Below, one piece after another: positions 1,513 to 9,491 of a stretch of 34,913 bases of DNA. Position numbers and translations under genes: made by a program. Under the pieces are notes generated by a model that was given only the letters and a program-made list of their open reading frames with translations, was not told where the DNA came from and did not search any database. This stretch comes from Betaproteobacteria bacterium (GTDB taxonomy: Bacteria > Pseudomonadota > Gammaproteobacteria > Burkholderiales > SG8-41), in contig CANJQI010000039.1 of assembly GCA_947476215.1 (NCBI GenBank), positions 1-34,913 of the forward strand, written 5' to 3'. The first letter of the stretch is position 1; each line of letters begins with the position of its first letter.

Positions 1513-3132
1513 ATGCCCATGATACTGGCACCTACCGCCACGCTTGGAACGTCTGCGCTGCAACTGCGACGAACCCTTCCGGATCTATCCGGGAAAGTCG
1601 TCGGTTTTATCGACAACACCAAACCCAATTTCAATTTTCTTGCCGATGACCTTGGTGATCTGTTAATCAAGAAATTTGGCGTACGTAACGTCATCAAACA
1701 GCGCAAGCACTCATCGTCTCGAGCCGCGTCCGAAAAACTGATGGCCGCGATGGTGGAAAGCTGCGATGCCGTGATCATAGGGTCGGGCGATTGAGGATCA
1801 TGTACGTCGTGGAGTATCCACGACTGCGTTGAAGCGGCAAAACGCGGGCTGCCCACGCTCGCGGTGTGTTCGACGGCGTTTTCGGCTTTTGGACGAGCGC
1901 AAGCCAGGTCTTTGGGGTTTCCTGACTTGCCGATGGCTGTCATACCGCATCCTTTCGGACCGCGCACGCGTCCGGAGATCACGCAACTTGCGCAAGCTAT
2001 CGTAGCCGACGTCGCTCGCATCTTGTGTAACCCGGGCACCACGGGAACGGCAGGCCGGAACGAATCAACACCCACCGTGCGCCCGCACTTGATCGAAGCA
2101 CCCGATGATTACGAGGAAATGAATGCATTCTTCCGTCAACGACAGTGGGGCGATGGGCTGCCGCTCGTACCGCCGACCCAAGAACGGGTGGCGCGTATGC
2201 TGCAGTACACCCAGCGTAGCCCCGAGGAAGTCGTGGCGACCGTGGCACCCGGCTTCGGGCAGGCAACCGTGGAACATATTGCGATCAATGCGGTTCTGGC
2301 GGGCTGCAGCCCGCCGTTCCTGCCGCTGCTTATCGCAGCAGTTGAGGCAGTATCGGCACCGGAATTCAATCTGCAGTCGGTTCAGACCACGACCAACCCG
2401 GCTACGCCGTGGCTTATCGTCAGCGGCCCCGTGACACGACAATTACAGATCAACAGCGGTATCAACTGTCTAGGCCAAGGCACCTGGGCAAACGCGGTGC
2501 TGGGGCGGGCATTGCGGCTGATACTGCAAAACATCGGAGGCGGCCTTCCGGAGGTGATGGACCGTGCCACGCACGGCCAGCCCGGCAAATACTCATTCTG
2601 TTGCGCGGAAAATGAAGACGGAAATCCGTGGGAGCCGTTGCATATCGAGCACGGCCACGCGCCGGAACACAGCACGGTCACCGTGGTTGCGGCAGCCGGC
2701 ACGTTAAATATCAATACCCACGCCAAGGATGTTACTGACTTGCTGCGCATGATCGCTGATGCGATGTGCTACGCCGCCAGCAACGACTATCGGGCCGAAG
2801 GGGGCGGTGAGCCATGGGTAGTGCTCTCTCCCGAACATGCGGAAATCCTGAAGCAAGCCGGCCTGACCAAAGCTGGCGTAAAAGCCCGCCTGTGGGAATT
2901 ATCCCGTATGCCAGCGCATCTCATGGCAAAAAAAGATCTCATCCGCACCCAGCATAACCGGCGTGCCGAACTGGGTGAACTCTCCCCGGACAGCCTGGTC
3001 CCGATATCAGCCACTCCGGAACTGATAGGTATACTCGTAGCCGGAGGTCCAGGCGGTCATTCGGTCTATATTCCGAGCTACGGAAATACCCGTTCTGTTA
3101 CGCGCAGGGTGGATACGACCTGCAACAAGTGA
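1513..3132 (+). CDS. UGSC-family selenoprotein, in-frame TGA read as selenocysteine (Sec94)
   Basis: Read through a single in-frame TGA at 1792-1794, this is one continuous 539-codon gene. The TGA encodes residue 94 and produces the string GD-U-GSCTSWS, the signature of the UGSC (seleno)protein family, where U may be Sec, Cys, Ser or Thr. Residues 1-165 form the UGSC-type domain, with a Rossmann-like VVGFIDNTKPN start and a conserved LGFPDLPMAVIPHPFG close downstream of the TGA. Both halves are needed for one domain, which argues against two proteins or simple decay. Residues about 205-539 form a second module beginning near WGDGLPLVPPT, with Cys at the INCLG and FCC sites; I do not know its function. 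GGAG lies 8 bases before the ATG. A SECIS-like hairpin follows the TGA. The terminal stop is also TGA, so recoding must be site-specific. A nonsense mutation is the alternative. Probable redox role is inference. Confidence 0.85.
1800..1829 (+). promoter_or_regulatory. Candidate bacterial SECIS element (SelB-binding hairpin)
   Basis: Directly downstream of the in-frame TGA at 1792-1794, bases 1806-1813 (GTCGTGGA) pair perfectly with 1817-1824 (TCCACGAC), leaving a three-base apical loop GTA that begins with G. Below a bulged C at 1805 the stem can continue through 1801-1804 with 1825-1828, including two G-U wobbles. The apical loop starts 19 bases after the TGA. A short loop with a G in its first two positions, some 16-37 bases from the UGA, is what is described for bacterial SECIS elements. 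The hairpin lies within codons for the TSWSIHDC segment. SelB binding itself is inferred. Confidence 0.7.
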
Positions 3133-3469: not shown

Positions 3470-4534
3470 ATGACTACGAATGACGTCAAGATGGTGCTGG
3501 TGGGCGATACTTTCGTCGGACGGCCTGACCCAGACAATGTTTTCAAGCCGGTCAAACATCTTATCCAGGGAGCGGATATTGCATTCTGCAATCTGGAAAC
3601 AGTCGTTGCCGATAGCAAATATATTGATCAGTATGATCGAGACCCGAGGCCTCACATGGACGAGTCTTCGATAGCGGCGTACCTGCGCGCCGGGTTTAAT
3701 TTTATGAATCAGGCGAATAACCCGCATACCTATCATGGGTTGAATGCCTTGGTGCGCAGTGTGGAAGTCCTGGAAACCATGAATGTGGCGCATGCGGGAG
3801 CAGGTCGGAATCTCGCGGAAGCGAGAAAACCAGCCATCATGGAGCGAAACGGCACCAAGGTTGCATTCGTTTGCAGGACGTCCGTCGGGACGCCTGAAAT
3901 GGCGGCGACAGTTGATACGCCAGGAGTCGCCCGTTACCCGGTCCACACGCTCTACGAAGCCCCTGCGCGAGTACATTCAAATCCGGGCTTGCTGCCCATT
4001 GTCCATACCGTTCCCGACAGAGGCGTGCATCGTGAACAACTCACCGAAGATATCCAGAAGGCACGAGATGCAGCAGATGTGGTGATCGTCTCATGGCACT
4101 GGGGCCTCTCCCCATTTCAGGTTTATCCCGGTGCCGGAGCGGGTGAGGTTGAGGTTATGGATTATCAAAAGGAGATGGGCCGGTATGCCATTGATTGCGG
4201 CGCCGATATGGTCGTGGGTCACCATCCCCACCAACCCCAGCCGATCGAAGTCTATAAGGGTAAGCCTATCCTGTATTCGTTGGCCAATTTCGTGCACGAT
4301 TTGGGGTCTTTCAATGAAAGAACGCTGATGGCATTGCTCGTCCGATGCCTGATACGTGACGGCAAGATTCAACGGCTCAGTTTCGTACCCGGCGTGCTTA
4401 CTGGAAACGGACCGCCAGCTTTCACCCGACCCGCGGAGTCACCTCAGGTTGTAGAGAGGATGATACAGATGTCGACTCCCTTTGGAACACGGTTCGAGGT
4501 TGGGGAAGAGGACGTTACCGTGGTCCTGAAATAG
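3470..4534 (+). CDS. CapA family metallophosphoesterase-like protein
   Basis: 354 residues with the CapA/PgsA calcineurin-like layout. VGD at 11-13 gives the first metal-binding Asp, CNLE at 40-43 follows, NNPHTYHG at 83-90 stands for the usual NNH block, SWHWG is at 208-212, GADMVVGHHPHQ at 244-255 carries the His cluster, and YSLANFV at 269-275 closes the core. CapA was named for the poly-gamma-glutamate capsule, but most relatives in proteobacteria are soluble and of unknown substrate. No signal peptide or membrane anchor is visible here, so a cytoplasmic phosphoesterase or amidase-like role is more likely than capsule export. AAAGGAG sits 8 bases before the ATG, one of the strongest ribosome-binding sites in the window. 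Bug-1 follows after 56 bases on the same strand, suggesting coexpression with an acid receptor. Confidence 0.85.
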   Translation: MTTNDVKMVLVGDTFVGRPDPDNVFKPVKHLIQGADIAFCNLETVVADSKYIDQYDRDPRPHMDESSIAAYLRAGFNFMNQANNPHTYHGLNALVRSVEVLETMNVAHAGAGRNLAEARKPAIMERNGTKVAFVCRTSVGTPEMAATVDTPGVARYPVHTLYEAPARVHSNPGLLPIVHTVPDRGVHREQLTEDIQKARDAADVVIVSWHWGLSPFQVYPGAGAGEVEVMDYQKEMGRYAIDCGADMVVGHHPHQPQPIEVYKGKPILYSLANFVHDLGSFNERTLMALLVRCLIRDGKIQRLSFVPGVLTGNGPPAFTRPAESPQVVERMIQMSTPFGTRFEVGEEDVTVVLK

Positions 4535-4590: not shown

Positions 4591-5571
4591 ATGCGAATAC
4601 CAAGGCTTCTTGTAACGACATGTTCCATAGGCGTCATGGCTGCGCGCGCGGTAAGCGGCCACGCCGCTTCGACAGGATCGGAACAGGCTTATCCGAACAA
4701 ACCCATACGCATAGTCACCGGGGGGGCGGGTGGGTCCGTGGATTTCGTGGTGCGCATGCTCGCACAGGGGCTTACGGCCAACGTGGGTCAGCAGGTGATA
4801 GTTGACAACCGGCCGCCCGGCGTCATTCCGGGAGTGATAGTGTCGCAGGCGCCACCCGACGGTTATTCCCTGCTGTTCGCCGGTGCCACCCTGTGGATAG
4901 GCTCGCTGCTGCAAAAAACGCCATACGATTCGTTGAAGGATTTTTCACCGATTACCCTGACCAACAAGCAGCCTAACGTCCTCGTCGTGCACCCGTCGGT
5001 GGCGATAAATTCGGTCAGAGACCTGATCGCCATGGCCAAATCCAAGCCGGGCGCGCTCAACTATGCGTCGGGTGGCAACGGCTCTTCGACTCATCTCGCT
5101 GCCGAAGTATTCAAGGACATGGCGGGCGTCAATATCGTGCGCATCGCATATAAAGGAGGCGGGCCTGCACTCATCGATCTGCTCAGCGGCCAGGTTCACA
5201 TGTCGTTCGCCAACGCCGGCCCGGTCATGGCGCACGTCAAAGCCGGCCGCTTGCGGGCGTTGGCTGTCACCAGCGCCAAACCGTCCGCCCTGGCCGCCGA
5301 TCTGCCGACGGTAGCGGCTTCGGGCGTGCCCGGGTATGAAGCGGCAGCAATCGTTGACATGTTTGCGCCAGCCAAAACGCCGGATGCGGTCGTCGTCCGG
5401 CTCAACCGGGAACTCGTGCGCGTATTGAATCAAGCCGATGTGAAGGAAAGATTCCTCGCTTCCGGAGGTGAGGCCGTCGGGAGTACGCCGCAAGAGCTCA
5501 CGGACGTCATGAAATCGGAAATAGCCCGGCTGGGCAAGTTAGTGAAGGCGGGTGTGCTCACCAATGAATAA
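4591..5571 (+). CDS. Bug-1: tripartite tricarboxylate transporter substrate-binding protein (TctC/Bug family)
   Basis: 326 residues. A basic start (MRIPR), hydrophobic core and Ala-rich end (about residue 27) form an export signal, so the protein acts in the periplasm. Bug proteins are two-lobed receptors that bind carboxylated solutes and feed TctA/TctB-type permeases or act as sensors. Landmarks are YPNKPIRIV at 34-42, the GGSVD loop with Asp51, PPDGYSLL, YDSLKDFSPIT, a long LNYASGGNGS stretch, AHVKAGRLRALAVTS, and a C-terminal KSEIARLGKLVKAG helix. It carries a Trp in the ATLWIGSLLQ segment, a signature shared with Bug-5, -6, -7, -8, -9 and -12 that marks one subclade. The ligand is unknown. 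An AAGGGA-type ribosome site precedes the ATG. Confidence 0.93.
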   Translation: MRIPRLLVTTCSIGVMAARAVSGHAASTGSEQAYPNKPIRIVTGGAGGSVDFVVRMLAQGLTANVGQQVIVDNRPPGVIPGVIVSQAPPDGYSLLFAGATLWIGSLLQKTPYDSLKDFSPITLTNKQPNVLVVHPSVAINSVRDLIAMAKSKPGALNYASGGNGSSTHLAAEVFKDMAGVNIVRIAYKGGGPALIDLLSGQVHMSFANAGPVMAHVKAGRLRALAVTSAKPSALAADLPTVAASGVPGYEAAAIVDMFAPAKTPDAVVVRLNRELVRVLNQADVKERFLASGGEAVGSTPQELTDVMKSEIARLGKLVKAGVLTNE

Positions 5572-6492: not shown

Positions 6493-7503
6493 TCAGTTGT
6501 CGACTTTCAGTCCCGCATCCCGGGCGACCTTGCGATTCCGCGCGATGTCGGCAGCAATAAACTGTCTGAATTCGTCTGGCCGGTTTCCAACTGGTTCCGC
6601 GCCGTCGTCTAAAGTCTTTTTCGCGACTTCGGGTTCTTTCATGATGGTCGCAACGCTCTGTTGAATCTTGCTGATGACCTCAGGCTGCATCCCCGCCGGC
6701 CCCAGCATCCCGCCCCAGCTCACGGCTTCGTAACCCGGCACGCCGGATTCGGCAACTGACGGGATGTTTGGCAATATCGGCGAGCGCTGGGCGGTGCTTA
6801 CGGCCAATAACCGCAATCTTCCGTTCTTGACGTGTGGTAACGCGGAAAGTATGCCGCCCATCATCATTTCGATTCTGCCCGCGATCAGATCTATCTCGGC
6901 TTCGCCCGCACCTTTGTAGGGCACGTGCATGAGGTTCACGCCGGCCATGATGCGGAACAGTTCCTCCGCGAAATGCACACCGGAGCCATACCCCGACGAA
7001 CCAAAATTGATCACGCCCGGTCTGGCCTTGGCCAACGCCACCAGCTCGCGTGGCGTCTTGACCGGCAGCGAGGGATGCACCACCAGCAGATATGGCGAAC
7101 GATTGATCAACGTAATCGGCGAAAAATCCTTGATCGGATCGTAGGCAAGTTTGGTATAAAGCGCCGCGGTGGTGGCAAAACCGCTGCCAGTCACCAGCAA
7201 CGTGTAGCCATCGGCGAGACTTTTTGCGATCGAGCCAAAAGCCACCGTGCCGGCAGCGCCGAGGCGATTCTCGACGATGAACTGGCGATTCATGGCGATG
7301 CTCAGCCGGGCCGCGATCATGCGTGCCGTGATATCGGTGCCCCCGCCTGCTGCCAGCGGCACGACGATGCGCACGGGTTTTGTCGGGTAGGTGTCGGCCG
7401 TGCCCTGCGCATAAACGCCTCTCGCCAGCGATGCCGCGAGCACGACCATCATGACTGTCGTTACGATTTCCAAACGTCCTGATGATTCTCTTAATTTCCG
7501 CAT
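6493..7503 (-). CDS. Bug-2: TctC/Bug-family substrate-binding protein
   Basis: 336 residues from the ATG encoding MRKLRESSG, chosen because AAAGG lies upstream; an earlier in-frame start would add ten residues without a good site. A signal sequence spans about 15-33 and ends in YAQG. It belongs to the classical Bug type: PFAM-like features are YPTKPVRIVVP (Val where the other receptors have Ile), AAGGGTD with Asp57, a KLAYDPIKDFSPIT segment, HVPYKGAGEAEID, and PHVKNGRLRLLAVS. The usual GQPVVVDNR strand is altered to NRQFIVENR. It is the last gene of a five-gene minus-strand run (prpD, Bug-4, hydrolase, Bug-3, Bug-2), 57 bases after Bug-3, and ends facing the broken dioxygenase. Confidence 0.92.
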   Translation of the reverse strand: MRKLRESSGRLEIVTTVMMVVLAASLARGVYAQGTADTYPTKPVRIVVPLAAGGGTDITARMIAARLSIAMNRQFIVENRLGAAGTVAFGSIAKSLADGYTLLVTGSGFATTAALYTKLAYDPIKDFSPITLINRSPYLLVVHPSLPVKTPRELVALAKARPGVINFGSSGYGSGVHFAEELFRIMAGVNLMHVPYKGAGEAEIDLIAGRIEMMMGGILSALPHVKNGRLRLLAVSTAQRSPILPNIPSVAESGVPGYEAVSWGGMLGPAGMQPEVISKIQQSVATIMKEPEVAKKTLDDGAEPVGNRPDEFRQFIAADIARNRKVARDAGLKVDN

Positions 7504-7560
7504 GTCACGACCTTTCTTGTATGGACTTTGCAACCCCGGCCTCGCGCGACGTGATACTCG

Positions 7561-8550
7561 TCACTCCGCACGTATGCCGACGTTTTTTATGACTTTTCCC
7601 CATTTCGCAACCTCCTGCCGGATATGGTTCGCGAATTCCTGCGGGGTCCCGGTTACGACTTCAAGTGCATCGCTGGCGAGGCTGGTGACGATTGCTTCGG
7701 CGCTCATGATGCGGCGAATTTCGTCGTTCAGCTTGCTTACCGCGTGGGCGGGCATGCCGGCCGGACCGAGCACGCCATACCACGATACAAATTCATAACC
7801 CGGCACGCCAGCCTCGGCAATCGTCACCAGCGTCGGCGCGGCGGGGGAGCGCTTGGTGCTTGTCACGCCCAGTGCTTTCAGCTTGCCTGCCTTGACGTGC
7901 GGCATGGAGGAAATGATGGTGTTGAATATAATGGACACCTCACCACCGAGCAACGCGATCACAGCCTGACTGCCGCCTTTGTACGGCACGTGGTTGAGGC
8001 GTATCTGCGCCAGCGATTTGAGAAGTTCCGCCGACAGGTGCGTAGTCCCCCCTACCCCGCCGGAACCGTAGTTAAGCTGATCCGGTTTCGCTTTGGCGAG
8101 TGCAATGAGTTCCTTGACGGTCGTGACGGGAAGGCTGGAATTCACCAGCAGTATATTGGGCGACATCGTGATCTGCGTCACCGGTGTGAAGTCCCTCACG
8201 GCGTCATAGGGCAGATTCTTGTAAAGACCGGGACTGATGGCGTGCGTGCCTATGCTGCCCATGATGAGCGTGTAACCGTCGGGCGCCGATTTCGCGGTAA
8301 TTTCCGCTCCCACGGTGCCGCCTGCACCGGTGCGGTTGTCGACGACCACCGGCTGCCCGAACCTGTCGGTCAGTCGTTGGGCAATCATTCGCCCCAGCAC
8401 GTCCAAACCGCCGCCGGCGGCAAATGGCACGATCAGCCGTATGGGTTTGGTTGGGTATTCGGCGACTGCGGCTGCATGCGCATTGAACGTCGCAAAGATG
8501 GTCGCCAGCACGACCGGCGAGCAAGCGGTTGTGAATTTTAGAAACGGCAC
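7561..8550 (-). CDS. Bug-3: TctC/Bug-family substrate-binding protein
   Basis: 329 residues from a GTG start (MPFLKFTTAC as translated), preferred because a GGGAGGGG purine tract lies about ten bases upstream and because a normal signal peptide (to about residue 28, AHAAA) begins there. The upstream in-frame extension is Arg-rich and unlike a signal peptide. Core landmarks are YPTKPIRLIVPFAAGGGLD with Asp50, VVVDNRTGAGGTVG, APDGYTLIMGS, LPYDAVRDFTPVT, LNYGSGGVGGTTHL, VPYKGGSQAVIALL and PHVKAGKLKALGVTS. This is the commonest Bug type (the GLYKNLPYD form), distinct from the Trp-bearing subclade. It lies between the hydrolase and Bug-2 in the same run. Confidence 0.92.
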   Translation of the reverse strand: MPFLKFTTACSPVVLATIFATFNAHAAAVAEYPTKPIRLIVPFAAGGGLDVLGRMIAQRLTDRFGQPVVVDNRTGAGGTVGAEITAKSAPDGYTLIMGSIGTHAISPGLYKNLPYDAVRDFTPVTQITMSPNILLVNSSLPVTTVKELIALAKAKPDQLNYGSGGVGGTTHLSAELLKSLAQIRLNHVPYKGGSQAVIALLGGEVSIIFNTIISSMPHVKAGKLKALGVTSTKRSPAAPTLVTIAEAGVPGYEFVSWYGVLGPAGMPAHAVSKLNDEIRRIMSAEAIVTSLASDALEVVTGTPQEFANHIRQEVAKWGKVIKNVGIRAE

Positions 8551-8579
8551 GGCGTTTGCCCCCCTCCCTACCCTCCCCC

Positions 8580-8594
8580 GGGCACGATGTGCCC
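8580..8594. repeat. GC-rich palindrome next to a pyrimidine tract
   Basis: GGGCAC (8580-8585), GAT, GTGCCC (8589-8594) forms a perfect six-base stem with a three-base loop, beside a C/T-rich tract at about 8559-8579 (purine-rich on the coding minus strand). It lies in the 92-base spacer between the hydrolase and Bug-3 and is transcribed in the 5' leader of Bug-3. It resembles small dispersed intergenic repeats of proteobacteria, or it may modulate Bug-3 translation; the neighbouring purine tract probably serves as its ribosome site. Confidence 0.4.
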
Positions 8595-8642
8595 AAGTGA
8601 GGGAAAAAGTGTGAGATATCCGTTTCACTCTGGTAGCGGTCA

Positions 8643-9491
8643 TCACTCGTGGCACGATATTCCGTCATACCGTGCCGCGAAATGCAGGACTTCCGACGTA
8701 CACGCCGCCGGTTCGAAGTTCTGTATCGCATGGTATTGGGACGGTATCTGCACCAGACGAAAGTCGTGCAGACTACTCTTCAAAGCGCGCAATTGCTCTT
8801 CGTCGAAGATCTTGTTGTGTGAGGGATAAAGTCCGAGCACCGGCGCTTTGATTCTGGGCAGGAACGGTACCGCGCTGAAGCCGGACACCCAATTAAACAT
8901 GGCCACAAGAACTTCGATACTGCTCGCCGCACGGACTCTCTCGTCCACGTACCACTGCAGCATGGCCGGATCGGAATCGGGCGGGAAGCGTCTGCCGGCG
9001 TTGGACGCTTCGGCCCACGCACGCAATCCCATCTTGCGCAGCGCATCCATTCTCGATTCATGACCATAGGCGGTGCTTTGCTTGTCATGGTCATTGAGAT
9101 AGACGGGCGCTGACACCAGGCTCAGGGTACGAACGCGTTGCGGATATTCCGCTGCAAATGCCATGCCGAGCAGTCCGCCAAACGATTCTCCGCAGTAATG
9201 CACTGACTCGCATCCGGCGTGATTGATGATCGCATTGAAATCGGACAGGTACTGCGCCAGGCCTATGCCTTTTTCAGGATCGAAATCAGTCGACGACTTA
9301 CCCAACCCGCGCAGGTCGGGACGCACGACGCGATAGTAGCGGCTCAGATACGGTATCCAGCTATACCAGAATTGCGACGAGCGGCCGAAGCCGTGTTGCA
9401 GCAACAACGTGGGCGCGGATTTCCACGGATCGGTGTAGTCGTCGAGTTCATAGTAAAGCGTTGGTCCGTCTTTTCGTTCTACGTAGGGCAT
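8643..9491 (-). CDS. Alpha/beta-fold hydrolase
   Basis: 282 residues. LLQHGFGRSSQFW at 30-42 supplies the oxyanion-hole HG, RPDLRGLGKS at 57-66 is the usual second loop, and GESFGG at 101-106 is the nucleophile elbow with Ser103. A histidine in SQYHAIQN (His254) fits the catalytic base, and an acid is probably Asp230 or nearby in LYPSHNKIFDEE. No signal peptide, so cytoplasmic. Probable serine hydrolase of an ester, lactone or C-C bond (meta-cleavage hydrolase type); the substrate is not readable. GGAGAGAGG precedes the ATG. It is flanked by Bug-4 and Bug-3 in a same-strand run, which suggests that it processes a substrate taken up by those receptors. Confidence 0.9.
   Translation of the reverse strand: MPYVERKDGPTLYYELDDYTDPWKSAPTLLLQHGFGRSSQFWYSWIPYLSRYYRVVRPDLRGLGKSSTDFDPEKGIGLAQYLSDFNAIINHAGCESVHYCGESFGGLLGMAFAAEYPQRVRTLSLVSAPVYLNDHDKQSTAYGHESRMDALRKMGLRAWAEASNAGRRFPPDSDPAMLQWYVDERVRAASSIEVLVAMFNWVSGFSAVPFLPRIKAPVLGLYPSHNKIFDEEQLRALKSSLHDFRLVQIPSQYHAIQNFEPAACTSEVLHFAARYDGISCHE

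Follow-up and report, generated by a model that had tools for sequence, protein, structure and literature searches.

A predicted fused UGSC selenoprotein gene of a betaproteobacterium, one of 54 TGA-containing copies in its genome, and the likeness of its domain to the selenocysteine domain of glycine and proline reductases

A gene of 539 codons at positions 1513 to 3132 (forward strand) of the window, that is, of the whole 34,913-nucleotide contig analysed here (C39 of the Betaproteobacteria bacterium assembly GCA_947476215.1), carries an in-frame TGA that is almost certainly read as selenocysteine. The sequence evidence indicates that this TGA (1792 to 1794, residue U94) would be decoded by the SelA, SelB, SelD and tRNA-Sec of the same genome, directed by a hairpin at 1806 to 1824. 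The gene belongs to UGSC, a known family (passages of PMC2398784, PMC9312934, PMC13188914, PMC5029168 and PMC9402790), and its UGSC domain is probably a relative of the selenocysteine domain of GrdB and PrdB, working with a fused or adjoining second domain. The family itself and one UGSC fusion were already known, as passages of PMC2398784 show. What goes further here is the presence of 54 TGA-containing copies and at least 59 interrupted genes in one genome, together with the likeness of UGSC to the glycine and proline reductase domain. The preliminary description, made from the letters of the window, could not see that the gene is one of 54 such genes and is fused to a second, unnamed domain.

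Codon 94, in the context IGSGD-U-GSCTSW, is the sole internal stop of the frame, which ends with a TGA of its own (3130 to 3132). Both points had been made in the preliminary description, which placed the internal TGA at the U of U-G-S-C-T, and both were confirmed. The standard code gives a 93-residue stub and a 422-residue N-truncated ORF, the two products it had expected from annotation. The UGSC profile PF24696 matched the read-through protein with an E-value of 5.5e-46 (domain at 1522 to 2028, forward strand, with alternating strands and helices in the predicted structure). Taken singly, the stub (3.8e-15, profile positions 2-92) and the segment beyond the TGA (1.1e-21, positions 94-171, adjoining those of the stub) matched as well, which bears out the claim that the same domain lies on either side. 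The PF24696 score was 157.3 bits against a curated cut-off of 25, while NF041046 scored the whole protein at 122 bits, slightly below its cut-off of 125, and the 178-residue domain at 125.5 bits. The family motif, U-G-S-C with selenocysteine or cysteine at its first place, is present as the TGA of codon 94 followed by GSC. The TGA stands at the same codon in 22 of 24 related loci, and the other two (L065 and L067) start past the motif, at a contig edge. The UGSC and partner domains do not share a single uninterrupted frame in eight of the 24 (L063, L064, L066, L068 and L070 to L073). Comparison with 12 relatives showed that divergence over codon positions 1, 2 and 3 is of the coding type on either side of the TGA. 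Five loci (L056, L066, L067, L068 and L071) come from environmental bins recorded as Bordetella parapertussis, a name that looks doubtful in view of their gene content.

The source genome (5.75 Mb, 326 contigs, 98.46% complete, 1.17% contamination) contains all four of the components whose presence the preliminary description had proposed to check. The profile scores were 446 bits for selB, 584 for selA and 424 for selD, and the tRNA-Sec, with anticodon TCA, scored 74.1 bits; a second tRNA-Sec match (45.5 bits) is a tRNA-Ser. The selA and selB genes, a Pyr_redox_2 gene and the tRNA-Sec lie on one strand of contig C221, while selD, on C41, has its own in-frame TGA at SHGGG-U-GCKLP. The Pyr_redox_2 gene is thioredoxin-reductase-like, lies between selB and the tRNA-Sec (L119, 434-1351, reverse strand) and is a candidate electron donor for the selenoproteins. 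In a sample of 60 related genomes including this one, a tRNA-Sec scoring 70 bits or more was found in 35 of the 39 that bear UGSC versus 5 of the 21 that do not (p 4e-7, for genomes that are related and not independent). The line at 70 bits was our own choice, the next score below it being 49.7, and the four UGSC genomes that fell under it are 80-91% complete.

Bacterial SECIS elements have a small apical loop that starts with G and lies 16-37 nucleotides from the UGA (passages of PMC13188914). The putative SECIS-like hairpin of the window gene (1806 to 1824, forward strand) has an 8-bp stem (1806-1813 with 1817-1824) and a GTA loop (1814-1816), the G of which is 20 nucleotides from the A of the TGA; its p-value against synonymous shuffles was 0.007. 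Strict stems, made of 6 or more base pairs including 4 or more G-C pairs, were present in 48 of the 54 copies of this genome when 7.1 were expected from synonymous codon redraws, and in all 21 relatives examined when 2.0 were expected. A good hairpin is absent from the remaining six copies, which counts against its generality. An earlier criterion, under which 53 of 54 copies qualified when 42.6 were expected (mean z of -1.51), was too loose and was discarded, and the strict count was therefore used. In 25 A-type copies of this genome, the serine at +15 is always encoded by TCG (background 0.27) and that at +21 always by AGT (background 0.11). Covariation was scored on 29 of the 30 A-type copies (C7 omitted) and on 19 of the 24 B-type copies (C106:13347, C104, C136, C14:44693 and C307 omitted). 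In the A-type set, 98.7% of cells were paired and seven cells had changed on both sides, neither value being reached in 500 shuffles, and three pairs had changed on both sides (5 of 500 shuffles as high). In the B-type set, 87.2% of cells were paired, with five two-sided cells (0 of 500 shuffles) and two such pairs (52 of 500), while further pair types did not exceed the shuffles (375 of 500), which counts against covariation in that set. These shuffles overstate certainty because the copies are related. A search of Rfam at the TGA gave nothing useful. The hairpin lends independent support to selenocysteine, and the selenoprotein reading of the preliminary description is well supported by the profiles, the decoding genes, the hairpin and the relatives that keep the TGA. 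All of its proposed checks that sequence data allow turned out in its favour.

The partner domain (2092 to 3129, forward strand, about 350-370 residues) had no Pfam or NCBIfam match at an E-value of 1 or less. A partner ORF also adjoins each of the 17 stand-alone UGSC genes of the genome, downstream in 11 and upstream in six. An AlphaFold2 model of the protein, with cysteine in place of selenocysteine, had a mean pLDDT of 83.2 and a pTM of 0.85. The best PDB structure match of the fused model, of NagZ type (E 2.5e-4, TM 0.19), was not convincing. The matches of the partner domain alone to fumarate hydratase (7xky, E 2.9e-4, TM 0.25) and to cyclic-amide-hydrolase entries at ranks 2-6 were too weak. 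A PDB sequence search returned one irrelevant match (E 0.18).

The likeness of the UGSC domain to GrdB and PrdB was found with family profiles. Across 50 domains of this genome, U94, G95, C97 and P7 are invariant while the mean column identity is 30%. When these 50 domains, with U entered as C, were scanned with NCBIfam at E 0.1 or less, TIGR01917 (GrdB) matched 22, PrdB 17, GrdF 12, TIGR01918 10 and GrdH 7, whereas every unrelated family matched two at most. Alignment with hhalign against eight GrdB sequences gave 80.4% (P 1.3e-5), with selenocysteine on selenocysteine. Several results count against the kinship, among them that the GrdB match fell to 39.6% (P 3e-4) when U was entered as X, that PrdB-like sequences gave 3.4%, and that the partner domain showed no similarity to GrdB, to PrdB-like sequences or to one GrdE-like sequence. 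Reversed GrdB scored 22.3 versus 43.3 for the real alignment, and among 150 column shuffles one 8-column artefact reached 133.6, above the real score, the next best being 27.1. Six of 17 short GrdB-like loci (L124-L140) were used (L128, L134, L135, L136, L138 and L139); the others, which lacked an orientation or had been read in a wrong frame, were dropped. A circular permutation, with the partner domain as the front part of GrdB, was unsupported (2.7%). In the open-licence literature searched, which took in PMC2398784 and PMC9312934 except for their GrdB passages, no link of UGSC to GrdB or TctC was found. Contig C148 (L145) carries a glycine-reductase-like cluster, in a betaproteobacterium, with GrdA, GrdB (in-frame TGA), a PF09338 subunit and a DUF5940 protein; the GrdA gene has one TGA inside its profile match. 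PF09338 (GrdE/PrdA-type), found in one gene on that contig, was not among the 25 families, of 57, listed for UGSC neighbours.

The protein could instead be a selenoprotein of another kind, a thioredoxin-like thiol-disulfide or peroxide enzyme and not a substrate reductase. A survey of 2008 considered the UGSC protein likely to be a Trx-like redox protein (passages of PMC2398784), U-x-x-C is a typical redox-centre motif, and the Pyr_redox_2 gene stands between selB and the tRNA-Sec. However, the model predicts strand-helix repeats in an order unlike that of thioredoxin, with the selenocysteine starting a helix after the third strand (residues 86-90), and no thioredoxin was among the best 50 of its 1642 PDB structure matches. 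The family profiles favour GrdB/PrdB, with TrxA matching one of the 50 domains, and fifty divergent copies beside substrate receptors are a better fit to substrate enzymes. We consider the thioredoxin-like enzyme improbable, although it is the best placed of the alternatives.

PF24696 had 58 matches in the genome, and 54 of them have a TGA at the first place of the motif (UGSC in 31, UGGC in 12, UGAC in seven, UGTC in three and UESC in one), which agrees with the earlier claim that chance would hardly place a stop there. Cysteine, serine or threonine was found at this place in none of the 54. Fifty copies are without other lesion, 33 of them fused and 17 stand-alone, and one of the fifty (C104) is cut by a contig end. 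The other four are broken or incomplete (C7, L116; C307, L103; C45, L113; C37:36241, L092), and copies are therefore also being lost. Two TGA-less matches are motif-less fused UGSC-partner paralogues (C76:16708-17226, L117, and C80:22300-22671, L118), 69.5% identical to each other, with LCNAGITQPTS instead of the motif; of the remaining two, C158:2894 starts past the motif and C7:47087 is part of a broken copy. With SelD, GrdA, GrdB and two PrdB-like genes, the 54 copies give at least 59 TGA-interrupted genes, a count confined to these families. UGSC was found in three of 200 genomes sampled from the phylum, this one included. One distant genome of that sample has a UGSC match free of stops (G201:C6:378247-378738), possibly a cysteine form.

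A copy number inflated by a mixed metagenome bin is very unlikely. The assembly does consist of 326 contigs with 1.17% contamination, and a review of 2026 cautions about such bins (passages of PMC13188914). However, no two copies are more than 72.7% identical, hence there are no strain duplicates, and several copies lie on single contigs (six on C27). UGSC was moreover present in 36 of 36 genomes sampled from the same family, at 2 to at least 48 copies (median 12.5, this genome entered as at least 48); one of these genomes, 100% complete and in 30 contigs, has 21 copies. That the gene is decaying or was hit by a nonsense mutation has a negligible chance of being the explanation: decay does occur in the four defective copies, but the window frame is free of further lesions, and the TGA shared by 54 copies and 22 of 24 relatives, the coding-type divergence downstream, the constrained hairpin and the full decoding machinery all stand against it. 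Genome-wide reassignment of TGA, or its reading as another residue, would fit the 54 in-frame TGA codons of one family, but can be dismissed as nearly impossible, since the window gene and many paralogues terminate in TGA in a genome with tRNA-Sec, SelA, SelB and SelD.

Upstream of the window gene, at a distance of 50 bases, lies an MmgE/PrpD family gene (113 to 1462), followed on the other side by a PGA_cap (CapA-like) gene (3470 to 4534) and by a gene for a substrate receptor of the TctC type, belonging to a tripartite tricarboxylate transporter (4591 to 5571), all on the forward strand. TctC was found among 44 of 92 immediate neighbours of UGSC genes versus 24 of 100 distant genes (p 4.6e-4 one-sided, 8.3e-4 two-sided), whereas MmgE/PrpD was not enriched (9 of 92 versus 8 of 100). 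The neighbours came from a simple custom gene caller, and the distant control was 100 of 140 genes, many of them from the TctC-rich window. TctC proximity is weak evidence because TctC genes are very common in this genome (at least 150). TctC-like genes were present in the loci of 20 of the 24 relatives, a figure without background control. The receptors are hugely expanded, with at least 150 scored matches in the genome search, 995 first-look candidates, and window genes at 4591-5571, 6493-8655 and elsewhere.

By analogy with GrdB and PrdB, the window protein may be a substrate-specific selenocysteine reductase of a TctC-imported carboxylate, a proposal to which we give slightly less than an even chance. 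The partner domain would help to bind the carboxylate brought in with the TctC receptor, and the selenolate would attack a polar carbon-heteroatom bond of the substrate. The selenium centre would then be reset via the conserved cysteine of U-G-x-C and a thiol donor, possibly thioredoxin. On this reading the protein would be a GrdB/PrdB-type reductase in which another part binds the substrate. The range of GrdB-like enzymes has a published precedent in a relative of GrdB that is implicated in cleaving carbon-fluorine bonds (passages of PMC10838667). Selenocysteine incorporation, GrdB/PrdB kinship and reductase activity, taken as a whole, are on balance the explanation that we favour. If the reductase link is true, it provides testable chemistry for a family that has been known since 2007-2008 but has no assigned function, and such chemistry would work in bacteria that carry an oxidase gene of the oxygen type. 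More tentatively, dozens of two-part reductases may have arisen in an environmental betaproteobacterial family through multiplication of a selenocysteine domain derived from GrdB/PrdB, many of them with a substrate receptor next to them. Should this hold, oxygen-respiring bacteria would gain a selenium-based use of many carboxylates, and the selenoproteome would be among the largest known. A survey of 2006 listed for Betaproteobacteria a single selenoprotein family and a total of ten selenoproteins (passages of PMC1794560). The main selenium-using family of the group is largely hidden in annotation, because standard gene finding splits every such gene.

Comparison with GrdB and PrdB showed that the selenocysteine regions align Sec on Sec, with U-G-[ST]-C-T, an alignment that is weak when U is masked. 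GrdB has PF07355 before its selenocysteine domain, whereas the window protein has no PF07355 match at E 1 or less and carries its partner domain after the selenocysteine domain, dissimilar to GrdB and to the one GrdE-like sequence tested. Dedicated transport genes are known beside grdB genes too (passages of PMC10838667). The published UGSC/Unknown_1 fusion, compared by its description in passages of PMC2398784, has a UGSC domain and a second conserved domain, as here; the present analysis describes the two-gene form, in which the partner gene precedes or follows the UGSC gene. The window protein shares with the UGSC family (PF24696, NF041046) the whole-domain match and the U-G-S-C motif, and the selenocysteine form is dominant here as it was in the ocean survey (255 Sec and 21 Cys in passages of PMC2398784). 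This genome differs in having 54 TGA copies in one betaproteobacterium and no cysteine form among its motif-bearing copies. The largest published bacterial counts, in passages of PMC13188914, are similar predicted gene totals of 57 in the Olavius Delta 1 symbiont and 63 in a Methylomirabilota bin, whereas here 54 of at least 59 come from one family, in a genome in which a COX1-family oxidase gene is present.
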